Source: Acidobacteriaceae bacterium
GTDB lineage: Bacteria; Acidobacteriota; Terriglobia; Terriglobales; Acidobacteriaceae
Reading direction: 5' to 3'
DNA length: 64,000 nt
Assembly: GCA_003134815.1 (NCBI GenBank)
Contig: PLCO01000056.1
Coordinates: 310-64,309 of the forward strand
The position numbers and the translations under genes are program-made. The notes below the pieces were generated by a model. The model was not told the DNA's origin and ran no database searches. It was given only the letters and a program-made list of their open reading frames with translations. Shown here in pieces: positions 21,589-28,150 of the stretch (the stretch's first letter is position 1; the number at the start of each line of letters is the position of its first letter).

Positions 21589-23595
21589 ATGCCAGATGCT
21601 GCCGGCTTGATTCTGCTTTTTCTTGTCGTAGTTGTGGTCTTGTTCGTGTTCGCCACTGCCTTTGCGTCGTTCTACAGCATTGGCCCCACCCAAATCGGAC
21701 TGGTGCGAAAAAGGTTTGGCAGCAAGCTGCCCGGCAACAATCCCATCGCCTTCCTGGGCGAAGCGGGTTATCAGGCCGACCTTCTCATGCCCGGCGTACG
21801 CTTCAAATTCAAACCTTTATTCACCGTCACAAAGCATCCGTGGGTTCAGGTGCCTGCCGGGCAAATCGGCGTTGTGATCGCGCAGGTTGGCAAGCCCACG
21901 CCTATCGGCGCAAAGTCAGGCAGGTACGACTCGGCCTTCGGCAACTTTACTGACCTGCGAGTGTTTGTGGACAAGAACGGAGAGAAGGGCGTGCAAAGGC
22001 CGGTTCTTTCCCCCGGCACACTGGCGCCCATTCACCCCGTGGCATTCCTGGTCATCACCAGGCCGCAGGTTTTCGGCGTGCCGGTGTCAGACGAGTACAG
22101 CAGGCTCGCCCGCGGCGGCAAGCTGGACTTTCGAGCCTTCGGCCTTGAAGATTGGCAGCTCGATGTCACGCGCATTGCGCCCAAGCCGACCGGCGACGGC
22201 GGCAAAGTCGCGGACATGATCGGAGTGGTCACCGCGCTCGACGGCGAGCCCTTGCCCGCCGGCGCTATCGCCAGCCGCCTCGGTGGATTCAATGACGTAA
22301 GTCAATTAGAAGGGAAAGCGGACGTAACCGATTTCGAGCTGATGGGGATAATTCTCGGCAGCAAGAACGACCAGCACAATAACTATCAGGACTTCCAGAA
22401 GTTTCTTGAAGCCGGCGGCAAAATCGGCCTTCAGCACGACCCTTTGCTCTATGGCGCTTACAACCTCAACCCGTTCCTGATCCGCGTGGAGCCGGTTCCG
22501 ATGCTGGTTGTGGAACAAGGTCAGGTCGCCGTCATCAAGGCGTACGTAGGATTGCCCACGCAGGACACGTCCGGCGCAAACTTCAAGTTCGGCAGCCTTG
22601 TTCGCCCCGGCCACCAGGGCATCTGGCAGGAGGCGCTGCGAACAGGGAAGTACCCCATCAATCCCCGGATCTACGACGCCAAACTTGTTCTTACCTCAAT
22701 TCTCAAGCTCGATTGGGCAAAGGATGTCACTGGCGCTCACGGCCTTGACGCGCGCCTGGAGCCGATCATAGCCAAAAGCAATGAGGGCTTTGTTTTCAGC
22801 ATCGACCTCCAGGTTCTCATTCACGTTCCCGATACGAATGCGCCTCGCGTCATCTCCATGGTCGGTTCCATGGAAAATCTCGTCAACGAGGTTCTTCAGG
22901 CTGCCGTCGGCAACCTCTTTCGCGACAAGATCGGCGGCATGGAAGCCATTACGTTTATCCAGACGCGCCAGAGCGTCCAGGAACAGGCCTTCAACTACAT
23001 CCAGTCGAAACTCGCCGAGTATGAAATCGAGACGCGGGGAGTTTATATCCAGGATGTCGTCTACCCCGAGCAGTTGGTCACCGTTCTCACCCAGCGCGAA
23101 GTCGCCCATCAGGAAGTGGAAACTTTCAAAATGCAGCGCCAGGCGCAAGACCAGCGCATCGAGACGGAGAAGGCTCGCGGCACCGCCGATATGCAGGTGG
23201 ACCTTGCCAAGTCAAAGGTCGGTGTCGACATTCAAACCAACCGGACCGAGGCCAGGATGAAGGAGGCCCAGGGCGAAGCCGCGTACATTGAGCAGACCGG
23301 AACCGCAAGGGGCGCCGAAGTTCGTGCCGTCGGCCTGGCCAACGCCGAGGCCTATGAGCGCCAGGTCGGAGCGCTCGGCAAGGGGCCCACCGCTCTCGTC
23401 AATGCCATCAAAGCGCTCTCGGTCGGTAATGTCGCGTTCGTTCCCAAAATCCTTGTCGTCGGCGGCAGCGGCAATCAGGGCATCCTCGAAAGCCTCGGAT
23501 CGCTCCTCATGGACAAGCTCGACACCAGCACCGCGGACTCCGCAGGCACGGCGGACTCCGGCTACGCCAGCTCCTCACCCGTCAAGCCAACGTAA
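21589..23595 (+). CDS. SPFH/Band 7 (flotillin-like) membrane protein
   Basis: This 668-aa protein starts at ATG 21589 with AAAGGAG 8 bases upstream. One N-terminal membrane helix (LILLFLVVVVVLFVFATAFASF) precedes a Band 7 domain (GVVIAQVGKP, VVEQGQVAVIKAYVG, FSIDLQVLIHVPD). A long charged coiled-coil region (ETFKMQRQAQDQRIETEKARGTADM) and a Gly/Ser-rich tail follow. SPFH proteins scaffold membrane microdomains and often partner with an NfeD-like protein; none is adjacent here. The last 15 codons and 20 bases beyond are duplicated at 26352-26416. Confidence 0.85.
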   Translation: MPDAAGLILLFLVVVVVLFVFATAFASFYSIGPTQIGLVRKRFGSKLPGNNPIAFLGEAGYQADLLMPGVRFKFKPLFTVTKHPWVQVPAGQIGVVIAQVGKPTPIGAKSGRYDSAFGNFTDLRVFVDKNGEKGVQRPVLSPGTLAPIHPVAFLVITRPQVFGVPVSDEYSRLARGGKLDFRAFGLEDWQLDVTRIAPKPTGDGGKVADMIGVVTALDGEPLPAGAIASRLGGFNDVSQLEGKADVTDFELMGIILGSKNDQHNNYQDFQKFLEAGGKIGLQHDPLLYGAYNLNPFLIRVEPVPMLVVEQGQVAVIKAYVGLPTQDTSGANFKFGSLVRPGHQGIWQEALRTGKYPINPRIYDAKLVLTSILKLDWAKDVTGAHGLDARLEPIIAKSNEGFVFSIDLQVLIHVPDTNAPRVISMVGSMENLVNEVLQAAVGNLFRDKIGGMEAITFIQTRQSVQEQAFNYIQSKLAEYEIETRGVYIQDVVYPEQLVTVLTQREVAHQEVETFKMQRQAQDQRIETEKARGTADMQVDLAKSKVGVDIQTNRTEARMKEAQGEAAYIEQTGTARGAEVRAVGLANAEAYERQVGALGKGPTALVNAIKALSVGNVAFVPKILVVGGSGNQGILESLGSLLMDKLDTSTADSAGTADSGYASSSPVKPT

Positions 23596-23615
23596 GCCAG
23601 CCGCGCCAAAAACGC
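23551..23615 (+). repeat. 65-bp direct repeat, left copy (SPFH 3' end)
   Basis: This segment holds the last 14 codons and stop of the SPFH gene plus about 20 bases beyond. It matches 26352-26416 with only two mismatches (23589-23590). The copies bracket the three-gene cassette. Confidence 0.92.
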
Positions 23616-23669
23616 CGTGCCCTGATCGACCGGCTGATCCTCGGGGCCTGTGAGTTCCTCCACTCAATG

Positions 23670-23711
23670 TGGGTGCCCCAGGTCCCTTGCGTTCGGGGAC
23701 CTTGGACGGCA
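23670..23711 (+). repeat. GGTGCCCCA-type stem-loop
   Basis: The arms CCAGGTCCC and GGGGACCTTGG around a short loop form a hairpin related to that at 13579-13617. It lies between convergent genes, just inside the left direct repeat, and could terminate both. Confidence 0.6.
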
Positions 23712-23760
23712 CGAACTCCGGCTGGCTCTTTCTCTGCACGGGACCGGCGTTCTTTGATTG

Positions 23761-24600
23761 CTATATGTATTCCCCAGGCGGATCTTGCTTCAGGCTGACG
23801 TCCTCTAAACGCCACTGCTTATAGCCATCCAACATGTGCCGCACAGAAAACACGGTGTCAGCGACCGCTTCGCAAGCACGGAGATCGACGGAGTGCCAAA
23901 GGCCCTGTTTAGAGAAGTTCCTTTCGAAGCTCATACGGAGCTTGTTGGCGTAGTCCTCCGCCACCGCTTTGCCCCCGAGCACAAGCGTTGAGTACACGAT
24001 CTTGACCGATAGCTCATATGGAACCTCGTCAGGCAGATGATTGTCTTCCGGGTCGTACATCATCCAAATGCCGCTGATGGCGTCGGGATCCGCAGACCGG
24101 AGCCCTTTCTTGATCGGCTCCATTCGGCTGTCTAGATCATCGGGAAATGCTGCACGGTTGTAGCGCGCCGCAAGCCACACCTGCAATATCTGCACACCCT
24201 TTCTCCCGAGAACCGCATCAGGGTCGGGGACCACGTCCATCAGCAATTTCTTGTCAACAGGGATCTTATTACGGGCATGTAATTCGAGAACTTTCTTTTC
24301 GCCATCCTGCTTGTATTCGAGATGCAGTCTCCGCGGGTTCCGCCCGTTGTATAGGCCGCCACTCTGTTCGTTCGTGTTTCGTCCCTGTATCAACTCCACA
24401 TGCGGCTCAACCTCATACGGCCTGACTAGGTCGCAGTCGTGGGAGACGACAACAAGCACCGGATTGGGATTATCCTTTGGAGTCGCTATGCCGAGCCGAT
24501 CGCGCACAGCCTTGGGGAGAATTGATCCCTGCCTCAGCTTCATCGTCGCATCATCCTTTTGGGAGGATGATGCGACGGACTGTTCGCGGGATCTATCCAT
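23761..24600 (-). CDS. Unrecognised protein with SHDCDL motif, third gene of the cassette
   Basis: This 279-aa protein has no family I can name. After a Ser-rich N-terminus it reads LRQGSILPKAVRDRLG, then VLVVVSHDCDLVRPYE (about residues 49-64). Here His, Asp, Cys and Asp are clustered and could bind metal or form an active site. A LYNGRNPRRLHLEY stretch, an AARYNRAAFPDDLDSRM block and an all-soluble C-terminal half follow. The ATG at 24600 overlaps the upstream stop by 8 bp (ATGGATAG) with GGAAGAG before it, so translation is coupled to the HTH gene. A downstream ATG at 24543 is possible. Confidence 0.62.
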   Translation of the reverse strand: MDRSREQSVASSSQKDDATMKLRQGSILPKAVRDRLGIATPKDNPNPVLVVVSHDCDLVRPYEVEPHVELIQGRNTNEQSGGLYNGRNPRRLHLEYKQDGEKKVLELHARNKIPVDKKLLMDVVPDPDAVLGRKGVQILQVWLAARYNRAAFPDDLDSRMEPIKKGLRSADPDAISGIWMMYDPEDNHLPDEVPYELSVKIVYSTLVLGGKAVAEDYANKLRMSFERNFSKQGLWHSVDLRACEAVADTVFSVRHMLDGYKQWRLEDVSLKQDPPGEYI

Positions 24601-25255
24601 CAAACTCTTCCAGAATTGGCGCAGCCAATTCCATAACTGACGAAAGATCTTGCTCGCGATGGCGCGTGTTTTGGTGCTCCGCAATGGACCGGTCGCGCGA
24701 ACCCTGCTCAGCGACAGACTGCTCTTCTAGAAGTGCAATTGCGGAATCTACATTCGCACCGCTAACCAGTAGCTGGAACAGAGAATCCCCCTCTGGCGAG
24801 AGAGGACGATGAATGAAGTGCTCGGGTCTATCAATGCCTGCAACCCGGATGCGTTTTGCAATAAGGCTCATTTGCCAAACTCTTTGGGCGTATTCATTTT
24901 TCAGATTCTCCCCTTTCAGCCAAAGATAAACAGCCTGCCGAGAAACACCGAAAATATCCGCTACCTCTGACATCTTGAGTCCGAGCCCGTCTCGAATTTG
25001 AAGGATCGCTTTGGGAATGCTGATCTCTTGGGTCGACTTCTTGCGTTCTAGAGAAGGCGCGCAGCTGATCGCAACCGCTGGGGCAGTGGTCCATTGGGAG
25101 ACCAACGCTGCATTCATTGGCGAGTAAAATCCACCCGTACCGGCGACGAATGCTCCGAATAGCGTCACAGCAGCAGCAAATTGCCGCGGATTGCCCCTCG
25201 CGTATAGAACCGATGCAGAACTGAAGACCTTACCCTCGCTCTTTTCAACATTCAT
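24593..25255 (-). CDS. HTH protein with N-terminal hydrophobic segment, second gene of the cassette
   Basis: This 220-aa protein has a hydrophobic stretch at about residues 26-52 (AAAVTLFGAFVAGTGGFYSP). A helix-turn-helix of XRE/phage-repressor type follows, with LQIRDGLGLKMSEVADIFGVSRQAVYLWLKGE at about residues 86-117. The C-terminal 90 residues are acidic and unrecognised. It could repress its own operon, perhaps through the tandem repeats at 26092-26128, or act as the membrane-linked sensor of the module. GGAGG precedes the ATG, 4 bp after the TIGR04255-like stop. Confidence 0.72.
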   Translation of the reverse strand: MNVEKSEGKVFSSASVLYARGNPRQFAAAVTLFGAFVAGTGGFYSPMNAALVSQWTTAPAVAISCAPSLERKKSTQEISIPKAILQIRDGLGLKMSEVADIFGVSRQAVYLWLKGENLKNEYAQRVWQMSLIAKRIRVAGIDRPEHFIHRPLSPEGDSLFQLLVSGANVDSAIALLEEQSVAEQGSRDRSIAEHQNTRHREQDLSSVMELAAPILEEFDG

Positions 25256-25259
25256 GAAG

Positions 25260-26042
25260 CTACCTCCACAGATCCAATGCTAACTGCGAGACGGCACCGC
25301 GGAAGGCCTTTGAGGCTTCCTCTTTTACAGCCGTGAGGCGCTCGCCTATAACATCAGGATCGAAGTCGAACTGCTCACGGGCCGTGCAATCCGTATCAAG
25401 AATGGCGTGCCAGTCGTTAATCGACGTGAACCGCGTATCGATCGCTAGGCCAATAGGCATCAAATCGATCGGGGTCGCAAGCACTCCACGAAGAATCACG
25501 ACACGCTGAACAAGGAGGCCCGAGGGACCGACGGTTGACACGCCTTCGAGGATACTGTGCTTTAGGGTGCCATTGGTACCCGAATAGAAGCCGAGCAGCT
25601 CTGGTTTGAGCCAAGCCTCCAGCGGATGGTCTTGACTTGGAATGACGGCGTCGAGCGTTCTAAATCCAATCTGCTCGACGTAATCAAGATTCAGTTCTTT
25701 GTGCACGACCCGAATTGCGATCATGAGGCGGGACTTGAAATCCTGCGATGTTCCGTAGTTGGTCGTTTGGTACGAGATTGAATTCGGAAAGAGAACGATC
25801 TCCCCCGTCTTCTTTGAATTAGTGAACCGCCACCGCTTTTGGCTCGTAGACACCGCCTTGGGCGCTTCGCCTGCTGGGTCGATCTGGAGCGACGTAAGGT
25901 TTTCTTCACTAAACCCGGAAAAGCTGTATTTCCTAAGCTCCGTTTGAAGAGCCTCTATATGGCGGTGCATATCTAGGATTGGGTTGAAACGTACTTGTCC
26001 AATTGTGAAAAAAATTGGAGCGTTTTGCATTTTCTCGCCCAT
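25260..26042 (-). CDS. TIGR04255-like protein, first gene of the cassette
   Basis: This 260-aa protein opens APIFFTIGQVRFNPILDMHRHIEALQTELRK. It contains RWRFTNSKKTGEIVLFPNSISYQTTNYGT, HKELNLDYVEQIGFRTLDAV and a closing FHDxxxD-like WHAILDTDC block. This order of blocks is that of the sporadically distributed TIGR04255 family, whose function is unknown. GGAGG lies about 9 bases before the ATG. It leads a three-gene operon with 4-bp or overlapping junctions. Base composition is visibly more AT-rich than in the flanking aroDE and SPFH genes, which suggests horizontal gain. Confidence 0.72.
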   Translation of the reverse strand: MGEKMQNAPIFFTIGQVRFNPILDMHRHIEALQTELRKYSFSGFSEENLTSLQIDPAGEAPKAVSTSQKRWRFTNSKKTGEIVLFPNSISYQTTNYGTSQDFKSRLMIAIRVVHKELNLDYVEQIGFRTLDAVIPSQDHPLEAWLKPELLGFYSGTNGTLKHSILEGVSTVGPSGLLVQRVVILRGVLATPIDLMPIGLAIDTRFTSINDWHAILDTDCTAREQFDFDPDVIGERLTAVKEEASKAFRGAVSQLALDLWR

Positions 26043-26091
26043 GTCCTTGACTCCCTCCGAGAAACGGATTCTGACTCCGTTATCGTCAAAC

Positions 26092-26128
26092 TTTACACTT
26101 TACTTGACAGTTTACACTTTACTTGACA
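26092..26128. promoter_or_regulatory. Two tandem 18-bp repeats upstream of the TIGR04255-like gene
   Basis: TTTACACTTTACTTGACA occurs at 26092-26109 and exactly again at 26111-26128, 50 to 86 bases upstream of the start at 26042. Their period is 19 bp, close to two helical turns. They suit an operator for the HTH protein of the same operon; this is inference from position. Confidence 0.7.
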
Positions 26129-26307
26129 ATCTCCTATGTCCAAATTCAGAAAATCTTCGACCGCGACCCTGAATTGTCCGGCCCTTGGCCGAGACTCACG
26201 GGCTGTCTAACCCCCTTAGCCCTCGCTCCCTTGCTCCCACGCCTGGAGCGACCCCCTAAACTGAGACAGAGCAGGAAAGCCCCATTTACATGGAATGGAG
26301 GCTTTAG

Positions 26308-26457
26308 ATGAAGCGAGATTATCGTCATTGGATGTCGACTCCGGAAGCACCGCGGACTCCGGCTACGCCAGCTCCTCACCCGTCAAGCCCGCGTAAGCCA
26401 GCCGCGCCAAAAACGCTGCCGCCTTATTGCCGGCCCCGCCGCATTCGCCCTTAAGGC
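26308..26457 (+). pseudogene. Possible truncated 5' end of another gene at the island edge
   Basis: GGAGG six bases before ATG 26308 opens a 49-codon frame starting MKRDYRHWMSTPE. After about 11 codons it runs into the right direct repeat in a frame that makes only Pro/Ala-rich sequence, then stops. The opening resembles the start of esterase-type genes, but this is a weak impression. It may be the remnant of a gene cut by the rearrangement. Confidence 0.3.
26352..26416 (+). repeat. 65-bp direct repeat, right copy
   Basis: This is the second copy of 23551-23615 (two mismatches), 2801 bp downstream in the same orientation. It still encodes the SPFH C-terminal peptide ADSGYASSSPVKP and stop in frame but has no intact gene upstream of it. 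Confidence 0.92.
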
Positions 26458-27764: not shown

Positions 27765-28150
27765 AAGTTTGCCGATCATTATCCCGTTCCGGCGCATACT
27801 CATTCCATGATCAACTTCCGCGATCCCCGTTCCTCGCATAACGCCAGACCAGAACCTCACCTTCGCTGGCCACCGGTTTGGTCCCGGGACCCGAATTCGA
27901 AGGTCCGTAATCAAAGAATCATTTCTTGACTTTCTGGGGGCTAAAATGACACTTAACCCTTTAGCAATCAACAAAACGACCTCAAAATCCCGGAGGTCAG
28001 AAATTAATGAAATAAAAAATGGATTCATTTTGGGTACAAAAGGCCACTTAACCCTTTCGGAATCAACAAAACCACCACAAAATCCACATCGATTTTTTGC
28101 GATTTTTGTTGATTTTTGTTCCCAAATCGCTCCTTTTCGGCCCCAAAAGC
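27765..28150. repeat. AT-rich dispersed non-coding element, copy 1
   Basis: About 390 bp of AT-richer sequence with no convincing gene. It shares with 49927-50275 an opening block (AAGTTTGCCGAT, then CCGGCGCATACTCA) and a closing block (CGATTTTTTGCGATTTTT, then CCTTTTC-GGCCCCAAAA). Inside, a motif CTTAACCCTTT-N4-ATCAACAAAAC appears twice, about 99 bp apart. Long frames exist on both strands but are not believable proteins. Confidence 0.7.

Follow-up and report, generated by a model that had tools for sequence, protein, structure and literature searches.

The 64,000-nucleotide stretch analysed here (the window) comes from contig PLCO01000056.1 of an Acidobacteriaceae bacterium and contains, downstream of a gene for an SPFH protein, a cassette of three genes named here TIG, HTH and SHD. 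The SPFH gene is located on the plus strand (Band_7, E=2.3e-15), and the three cassette genes are all on the minus strand, in the order TIG, HTH, SHD, between two direct repeats of the SPFH gene end. The features of the locus are as follows:

23536-23626, plus strand: direct repeat copy 1, the 3' end of the SPFH gene with downstream bases (core 23551-23615, 65 bp)
23761-24600, minus strand: SHD, third gene, 279 amino acids from the likely ATG at 24600 (homologue fit)
24148-24549, minus strand: SHD residues 18-151, predicted MazF/CcdB-fold domain (predicted structure)
24430-24444, minus strand: SHD residues 53-57, SHDCD motif (72-sequence alignment)
24593-25255, minus strand: HTH, second gene, 220 amino acids, with an N-terminal hydrophobic segment, GTGG and then a helix-turn-helix
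24905-25009, minus strand: helix-turn-helix domain, HTH residues 83-117 (HTH_23 at E=2.5e-5 and HTH_3 at E=5.7e-4, neither reaching its Pfam cut-off)
25130-25180, minus strand: HTH residues 26-42, hydrophobic stretch with GTGG at its end (40-sequence alignment)
25260-26042, minus strand: TIG, first gene of the operon, TIGR04255 family protein of 260 amino acids (NCBIfam E=1.8e-34; model pLDDT 94.8)
26092-26128, minus strand: putative operator, a direct repeat of two TGTCAA-N6-TGTAAA units, 50-86 bp ahead of the TIG start
26337-26427, plus strand: direct repeat copy 2, an orphan copy of the end of the SPFH gene, beyond the cassette (core 26352-26416)

Sequence comparison showed that 23551-23615 recurs at 26352-26416, at a spacing of 2801 bp and with mismatches at 2 of 65 positions, and that the similarity reaches 91 nt at 89% (23536-23626 and 26337-26427). 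Copy 1 consists of the final 14 codons of the SPFH open reading frame, its stop codon (23593-23595) and 20 bp downstream, and 2736 bp (23616-26351) lie between the copies. The end of the target gene is thus repeated at both boundaries over 65 bp, as in integrative elements with an attachment site in a gene 3' end, and none of the three genes or open reading frames between the copies encodes an integrase. Chance similarity was rejected as the source of the repeats, and so was a genome-wide element, as a DNA search of the bacterium's own genome with 23551-26416 (E<=0.001) listed no further place for the repeat. A different, dispersed repeat was observed at 23670-23719 (GTGGGTGCCCCAGGTCCCTTGCGTTCGGGGACC...). 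Four further places in the genome carry copies of it at 80-89%, and the relative G037 has a stretch like it; it is perhaps a REP-like family of this group.

TIG and HTH are separated by 4 nt. The SHD open reading frame opens at TTG 24684, and its homologues fit ATG 24600, which overlaps the HTH stop. The GC content of 23616-26351 is 0.535 against 0.593 for the window, and values as low or lower were found in 13 of 613 overlapping windows of the same size, some of which overlap the cassette itself. A sigma-70 consensus scan of the cassette region found no promoter. An earlier note on this DNA, made from the letters alone, had described near-identical SPFH-end repeats around an AT-richer operon of three tightly coupled genes with no integrase, and a His-Asp-Cys-Asp cluster in the third protein; these descriptions were all borne out on recomputation, the cluster being the SHDCD motif listed above.

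Conservation of the Three-Gene Unit

When 84,980 species genomes were scanned, relatives of SHD were confirmed at 150 loci. The best 80 of these 150 and 48 loci from IMG/VR gave a set of 128 (loci are numbered with L; rows not deduplicated, L038 being the same contig as L008), in which TIG, HTH and SHD were found in this order on one strand at 122 genomic and viral loci. The six exceptions were L107, where TIG and HTH form a single open reading frame, L084, L122 and L150, which are truncated by a contig end, L063, with no TIG upstream, and L158, with a partial SHD. SHD occurs in 8 of 199 related genomes, the bacterium's own included, and the same order was present at six of the seven other loci of these relatives (including L008, the L038 contig), the seventh carrying an SHD fragment alone. 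In PLSDB, SHD was found in 9 of 72,556 plasmid records, of which three are typed as conjugative. In each of the nine, a TIGR04255 gene and a middle gene aligning with HTH precede it. The phage collection contained SHD only in two Acinetobacter prophage-like records, which have the same gene order and mutually identical trios. The combination, unfamiliar to the author of the earlier note, is therefore nearly always found together.

The record titles name Pseudomonadota, Acidobacteriota, Cyanobacteria, Nitrospirae, Chloroflexi, Verrucomicrobia and Acidothermus, and Deinococcota via a plasmid. The protein distances of TIG, HTH and SHD correlate with r = 0.91-0.94 across 88 loci (without a control pair). 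The trio is a real unit, inherited as one operon. TIGR04255 itself is more widely distributed, with 35 matches in 32 of the 199 related genomes, seven of them in trios. At L107 (4717-5961), a natural TIG-HTH fusion of 414 amino acids, followed by SHD, was observed, and the HTH hydrophobic segment is absent from the fusion.

Operator-Like Repeats Upstream of TIG

Two 18-bp direct repeats are located upstream of TIG in the window, and they have no other place in the genome within 2 mismatches. In the sense direction the motif unit is TGTCAA-N6-TGTAAA, with TGTCAA at 26123-26128 and 26104-26109 and TGTAAA at 26111-26116 and 26092-26097. Exact tandem repeats were present in only 4 of 132 upstream regions, and the wider motif surfaced by k-mer counting, which gave the same words in other phyla.

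The operator set comprised 80 upstream regions, the window included, after dropping those whose TIG exceeded a k-mer similarity of 0.5 to that of a retained locus and those with less than 160 bp upstream, and the motif was learned from these same 80 regions. TGT[AC]AA was found in 75 of them (198 sites) and on the opposite strand of 10, compared to 1 of 76 control stretches after SHD and 9 of 76 on their other strand. A pair of these words at 12-bp spacing was present in 68 of the 80 regions, on none of their other strands and on none of 152 control strands. Outside the learning set, the pair was found at 5 of 5 acidobacterial trios (a sixth, L251, is the L038 contig and was not counted), while none of the 18 loci examined among 28 TIGR04255 matches not known to belong to trios carried it, indicating that the motif belongs to the trio and not to TIGR04255, which was rejected as its owner.

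Operator-based autoregulation by a protein of the operon is a trait of type II toxin-antitoxin systems. Because HTH is the sole recognisable DNA-binding protein of the operon, it is the candidate to bind the TGTCAA-N6-TGTAAA repeats, a proposal drawn from the sequences.

Properties of the Three Proteins

Profile searches of the three proteins gave unequal results. TIG is a clear member of TIGR04255, with 119.7 bits (curated cut-off 30) over residues 4-259 of 260, HTH stayed below the Pfam cut-offs, and SHD had no significant family. In none of the openly licensed papers searched was the name TIGR04255 found. In HTH, an alignment of 40 sequences has G39 and T40 conserved in 90% of them or more, and 71 of 88 homologues have a G[TS]G-type motif within the first 110 residues.

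SHD of the window showed no significant Pfam match and no NCBIfam or PADLOC match, no toxin family being found in Pfam or NCBIfam at E<=1; in PHROGs, only phrog_34320, a family of unknown function, matched (E=1.4e-5). When 72 diverse SHD homologues were compared with NCBIfam, only weak matches were obtained (best E 0.0031), the commonest being Crn3/Csx3 and a secretion chaperone family with 2 of 72 each, and no MazF or CcdB family appeared at E<=0.1. Sequence profile searches of the PDB gave nothing usable (best E 0.68 for SHD and 0.51 for TIG). Alignment of the 72 sequences revealed that Q24, D55, C56, D57, W142, L143, Y147, R149 and Y195 are invariant, that E69 and R90 are present in 71 and that H54 is present in 70. 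More distant copies keep C56, and not always H54, D55 and D57.

The SHD structure model, built from the 72 sequences, reached a predicted local distance score (pLDDT) of 87.1. In Foldseek, ranks 1-25 were MazF-type toxins, with E values from 2.1e-3 to 1.4e-2 and probabilities of 0.99-1.00. VIA-align 2, which re-examines the 1000 best Foldseek entries, gave a best Z of 9.4 (97 residues at 3.0 A, over model residues 21-149), and its 50 listed entries were MazF-, CcdB- or CptIN-type toxins, some of them titled only toxin, endoribonuclease or YdcE. The search of BFVD placed an unnamed protein first and "PemK-like" proteins at ranks 2-6. The N-terminal half of SHD is thus predicted to have a MazF/CcdB fold. 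The barrel is seen in the predicted model and a link by sequence profile was missing, so SHD was not filed as a member of this family.

Gain of the Cassette and Repeats Around Other Copies

In the genus, 8 of 80 genomes, the bacterium's own included, have a close and near full-length match to the SPFH gene (77-100%), seven further genomes with weaker or partial matches being left aside. Apart from the bacterium's own, seven genomes thus have a close match; six of them could be read beyond the gene end and none of these has the trio there, whereas the contig of the seventh ends too soon; the absence was re-examined by a profile check of all seven stretches. The closest relative, G037 (94% in SPFH), has a single repeat copy. 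The two copies of the window differ at 5 of 72 positions from each other and at 9 and 10 from G037, and this closer similarity to each other fits a duplication in this lineage. Trio-free SPFH ends were therefore found in the relatives, but a strict empty site was not found in those read past SPFH, because the sequence after the gene differs in them. Vertical inheritance of the trio within the genus was rejected, as SHD is present in so few of the related genomes. The horizontal gain proposed in the earlier note is supported by these comparisons, which argue for a recent entry of the cassette into this bacterium's chromosome.

Direct repeats around other trios were analysed at 83 loci, kept after exclusion of the window and of loci with an SHD similarity above 0.6 or flanks shorter than 500 bp. 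A direct repeat spanning the trio (E<=1e-4, 500-bp flanks) was found at 7 of the 83 loci and in 1 of 358 controls, which were same-length segments from 89 such loci (Fisher p=4.6e-5). With 3-kb flanks and E<=1e-3, a repeat was present at 17 of 121 loci (not deduplicated; some repeats are distant and perhaps unrelated). Thirteen of these 17 were inspected, and the stretch between the copies measured 2290-2988 bp at ten (L027, L032, L035, L050, L060, L070, L081, L102, L105 and L113) and 3.6-5.4 kb at three. The repeats at the 13 loci do not regularly coincide with the ends of open reading frames, and gene 3' ends were rejected as a general rule. The trio seems often to arrive as a cassette of minimal size, through an event after which local sequence is present in one copy at either end.

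Genomic Context of the Homologous Copies

Of 5426 complete E. coli genomes, 19 match the trio. For 18 of these the match is at only 64% and covers 47% of the query, and the three of the 18 that were read each contain the complete trio. A Klebsiella trio had no blastn match in E. coli genomes. In all four E. coli regions read, a P2-like prophage carries the trio between its gpA and gpQ genes, in the order replication endonuclease gpA, a short gene, a DinI-like gene, the trio and the portal gene gpQ; the copy in the window is not so placed. According to the available parts of Rousset et al. (PMC9122126), the gpA-gpQ locus is a hotspot of anti-phage systems, with 18,150 loci in E. coli and systems that were tested, and the accessible sections of Vassallo et al. 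(PMC9519451) place 4 of their 21 systems there.

Among 107 neighbouring genes of the prophage copies were 9 for portal proteins, 7 for terminases and 5 for gpA proteins. The neighbours of the genomic copies, of which 130 of 169 were scanned, include MzaC, MzaE, a type IV restriction endonuclease, DndB, ThsB, AbiEii, dCTPase, AIPR, Z1 and DUF4420 (proteins below 80 amino acids in viral and below 150 in genomic records were dropped). Plasmid copies have as neighbours type I restriction genes (L021, L025), VapBC (L028) and an RES protein (L024). In PADLOC-DB 2.0.0, TIG and SHD matched 0 families, at E<=1 for the copy in the window and at E<=10 for two E. coli copies and one Klebsiella copy, and the HTH proteins gave weak matches to the HTH models of RmrA and mad1 (best E 4.1e-4). 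The available parts of papers on PemK with anti-phage three-gene operons and on DefensePredictor (including PMC13092281) describe no such trio.

Discussion

The cassette is probably a copy of a widespread, mobile and autoregulated module of the toxin-antitoxin type that defends against phages. The HTH protein would bind the upstream repeats and repress the operon, TIG and/or HTH would keep SHD silent and sense infection or stress, and SHD would be the effector which, once freed, harms or stops the cell by RNA cleavage or by poisoning a host target. The entry of the cassette downstream of SPFH may have duplicated the 3' end of this gene and left the gene intact. The conflict, stress or phage-related role suggested in the earlier note gained support from the P2 hotspot and from the predicted toxin fold of SHD, and is still to be read as a suggestion. 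A more detailed version is possible, if doubtful: the trio would be an unnamed anti-phage family that is also a mobile cassette of minimal size (about 2.3-3.0 kb, lacking an integrase and ending on both sides in 19-260 bp direct repeats of local sequence), in which the hydrophobic-tailed GTGG HTH protein senses attack, leaves the tandem operators and, with TIG, frees an effector of the MazF/CcdB fold whose Cys-Glu-Arg active site would be new.

Several observations weigh against a toxin-based defence module. Comparison of SHD with 21 acidobacterial MazF proteins gave an hhalign probability of 0.2%, so that the link to toxins comes through the fold alone, and a fold by itself shows no function. 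In Foldseek, no PDB entry matched the SHD model at E<=0.001 (best 2.1e-3), the MazF-type rows have TM-scores of 0.25-0.30 by query length with half of SHD covered, and the best Z of VIA-align 2 is only somewhat over the level reached by models without a clear match. The predicted template-modelling score (pTM) of SHD is 0.63, and the fold matches leave the C-terminal half, residues 152-279, uncovered. TIG gave fold matches of middling quality that point in different directions, to arginine kinases (Z 8.8), to TBP (Z 7.9) and to AdoMetDC (Foldseek E 9e-4), and with candidates in competition none of these folds was assigned. The hydrophobic segment of HTH in the window is borderline (Kyte-Doolittle 1.56), and only 42 of 88 homologues have a 17-mer reaching 1.6. 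The operator pair is missing from 12 of the 80 upstream regions, and the copies without it include those of Acinetobacter and one plasmid copy each from Mesorhizobium and Gloeocapsa (L025, L026, L028, L027). Each defence family near the genomic copies has a single representative among the 130 genes, many of the others being ordinary, in counts made without a control set, and no prophage or defence island was seen around the copy in the window. A role in defence, a toxic action and the chemistry behind it are what we infer from these comparisons.

The same parts could serve a different benefit, namely that of a selfish addiction module which keeps plasmids and prophages stable and has no protective effect at all. 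The presence of SHD on plasmids, some of them conjugative, and in prophages, the predicted toxin fold and an operator of the kind found in autoregulated operons are all consistent with this explanation; however, the E. coli prophage copies occupy the locus of published anti-phage systems, and there are chromosomal copies too, such as the one in the window. This alternative, which is not mutually exclusive with defence, is considered rather unlikely. A module for regulation or stress without any toxin, in which SHD would be an SH3-barrel enzyme or binder with only its fold in common with MazF and the trio would regulate a host function, is regarded as improbable. It would agree with the missing sequence link between SHD and MazF, with the regulator-like HTH protein and with the conserved Cys56, Glu69, Arg90 and Trp142, which suggest a chemistry unlike that of MazF, but the sporadic and mobile spread of the trio and its position in the P2 hotspot would be unusual for housekeeping regulation.

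It is similarly doubtful, at a low chance, that the trio corresponds to a three-gene system of P2 with "no clear predicted domain" which stops P1, mentioned in the available parts of Rousset et al. (PMC9122126). Hotspot and gene number are the same, and the number of E. coli genomes with the trio is high enough for it to have been sampled within the 18,150 loci. The RefSeq annotation of the middle gene as HTH/XRE or transcriptional regulator, and of the first as TIGR04255, is nevertheless unlike that description. The 0 PADLOC families for TIG and SHD of the three E. coli and Klebsiella copies also speak against this identity, as PADLOC presumably includes 3HP.

When compared to known systems, the module proposed here resembles the type II toxin-antitoxin systems MazEF, PemIK and CcdAB in its predicted toxin fold, in its tight operon with a DNA-binding protein and operator-like repeats, and in being mobile and sporadic. 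It differs from them in having three genes with the toxin-like gene last, in the size of SHD (279 amino acids, with a second domain and an invariant Cys, and with no sequence similarity to MazF found) and in upstream repeats that are direct instead of inverted. With the P2 gpA-gpQ systems (old/tin, DUF4238, DprA-PRTase and the three-gene system of Rousset 2022), as described in the accessible parts of that work, the trio shares the position in E. coli prophages, but its protein families differ from those described there, and it also occurs on plasmids and chromosomes of many phyla. Like PD-Lambda-2, as presented in the available sections of Vassallo 2022, the trio has three genes, an XRE-type HTH and a toxin-like protein; the HigB-like, HigA-peptidase and SecB-like parts given there for PD-Lambda-2 and PD-T4-9, three-component systems derived from toxin-antitoxin modules, are unmatched in the trio.

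The trio joins three little-known protein families in a single system open to testing, for which an effector and an operator are predicted and of which E. coli has a phage-borne version. If the proposed defence role is true, it would give TIGR04255 a functional setting and extend the MazF/CcdB toxin fold by a divergent branch. Given the repeats around several copies, one may ask by what route cassettes of this kind move when they have no integrase.

Other Observations

Most TIGR04255 genes of the related genomes lie outside the trio, and at L255, L256, L264, L265, L268 and L272 such genes are closely followed by unrelated genes of about 160-175 amino acids. Seven of eight scanned partners of non-trio TIGR04255 genes had no Pfam match, and one, of 128 amino acids, was weakly HEPN-like. 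It looks as if TIGR04255 had interchangeable partners. Another TIGR04255 operon, at L277 (1450-3223), has an unrelated middle gene of 170 amino acids and then a 151-amino-acid protein with QGDIL and SQSCDL, which may be distantly related to SHD (profile score only 2.8 bits).

Further along the window, at 27943-28114, a 48-nt sequence recurs after 95 nt (88%), with 24-nt inverted arms directly behind it. The gene that follows resembles, as judged by eye, a TonB-dependent receptor.

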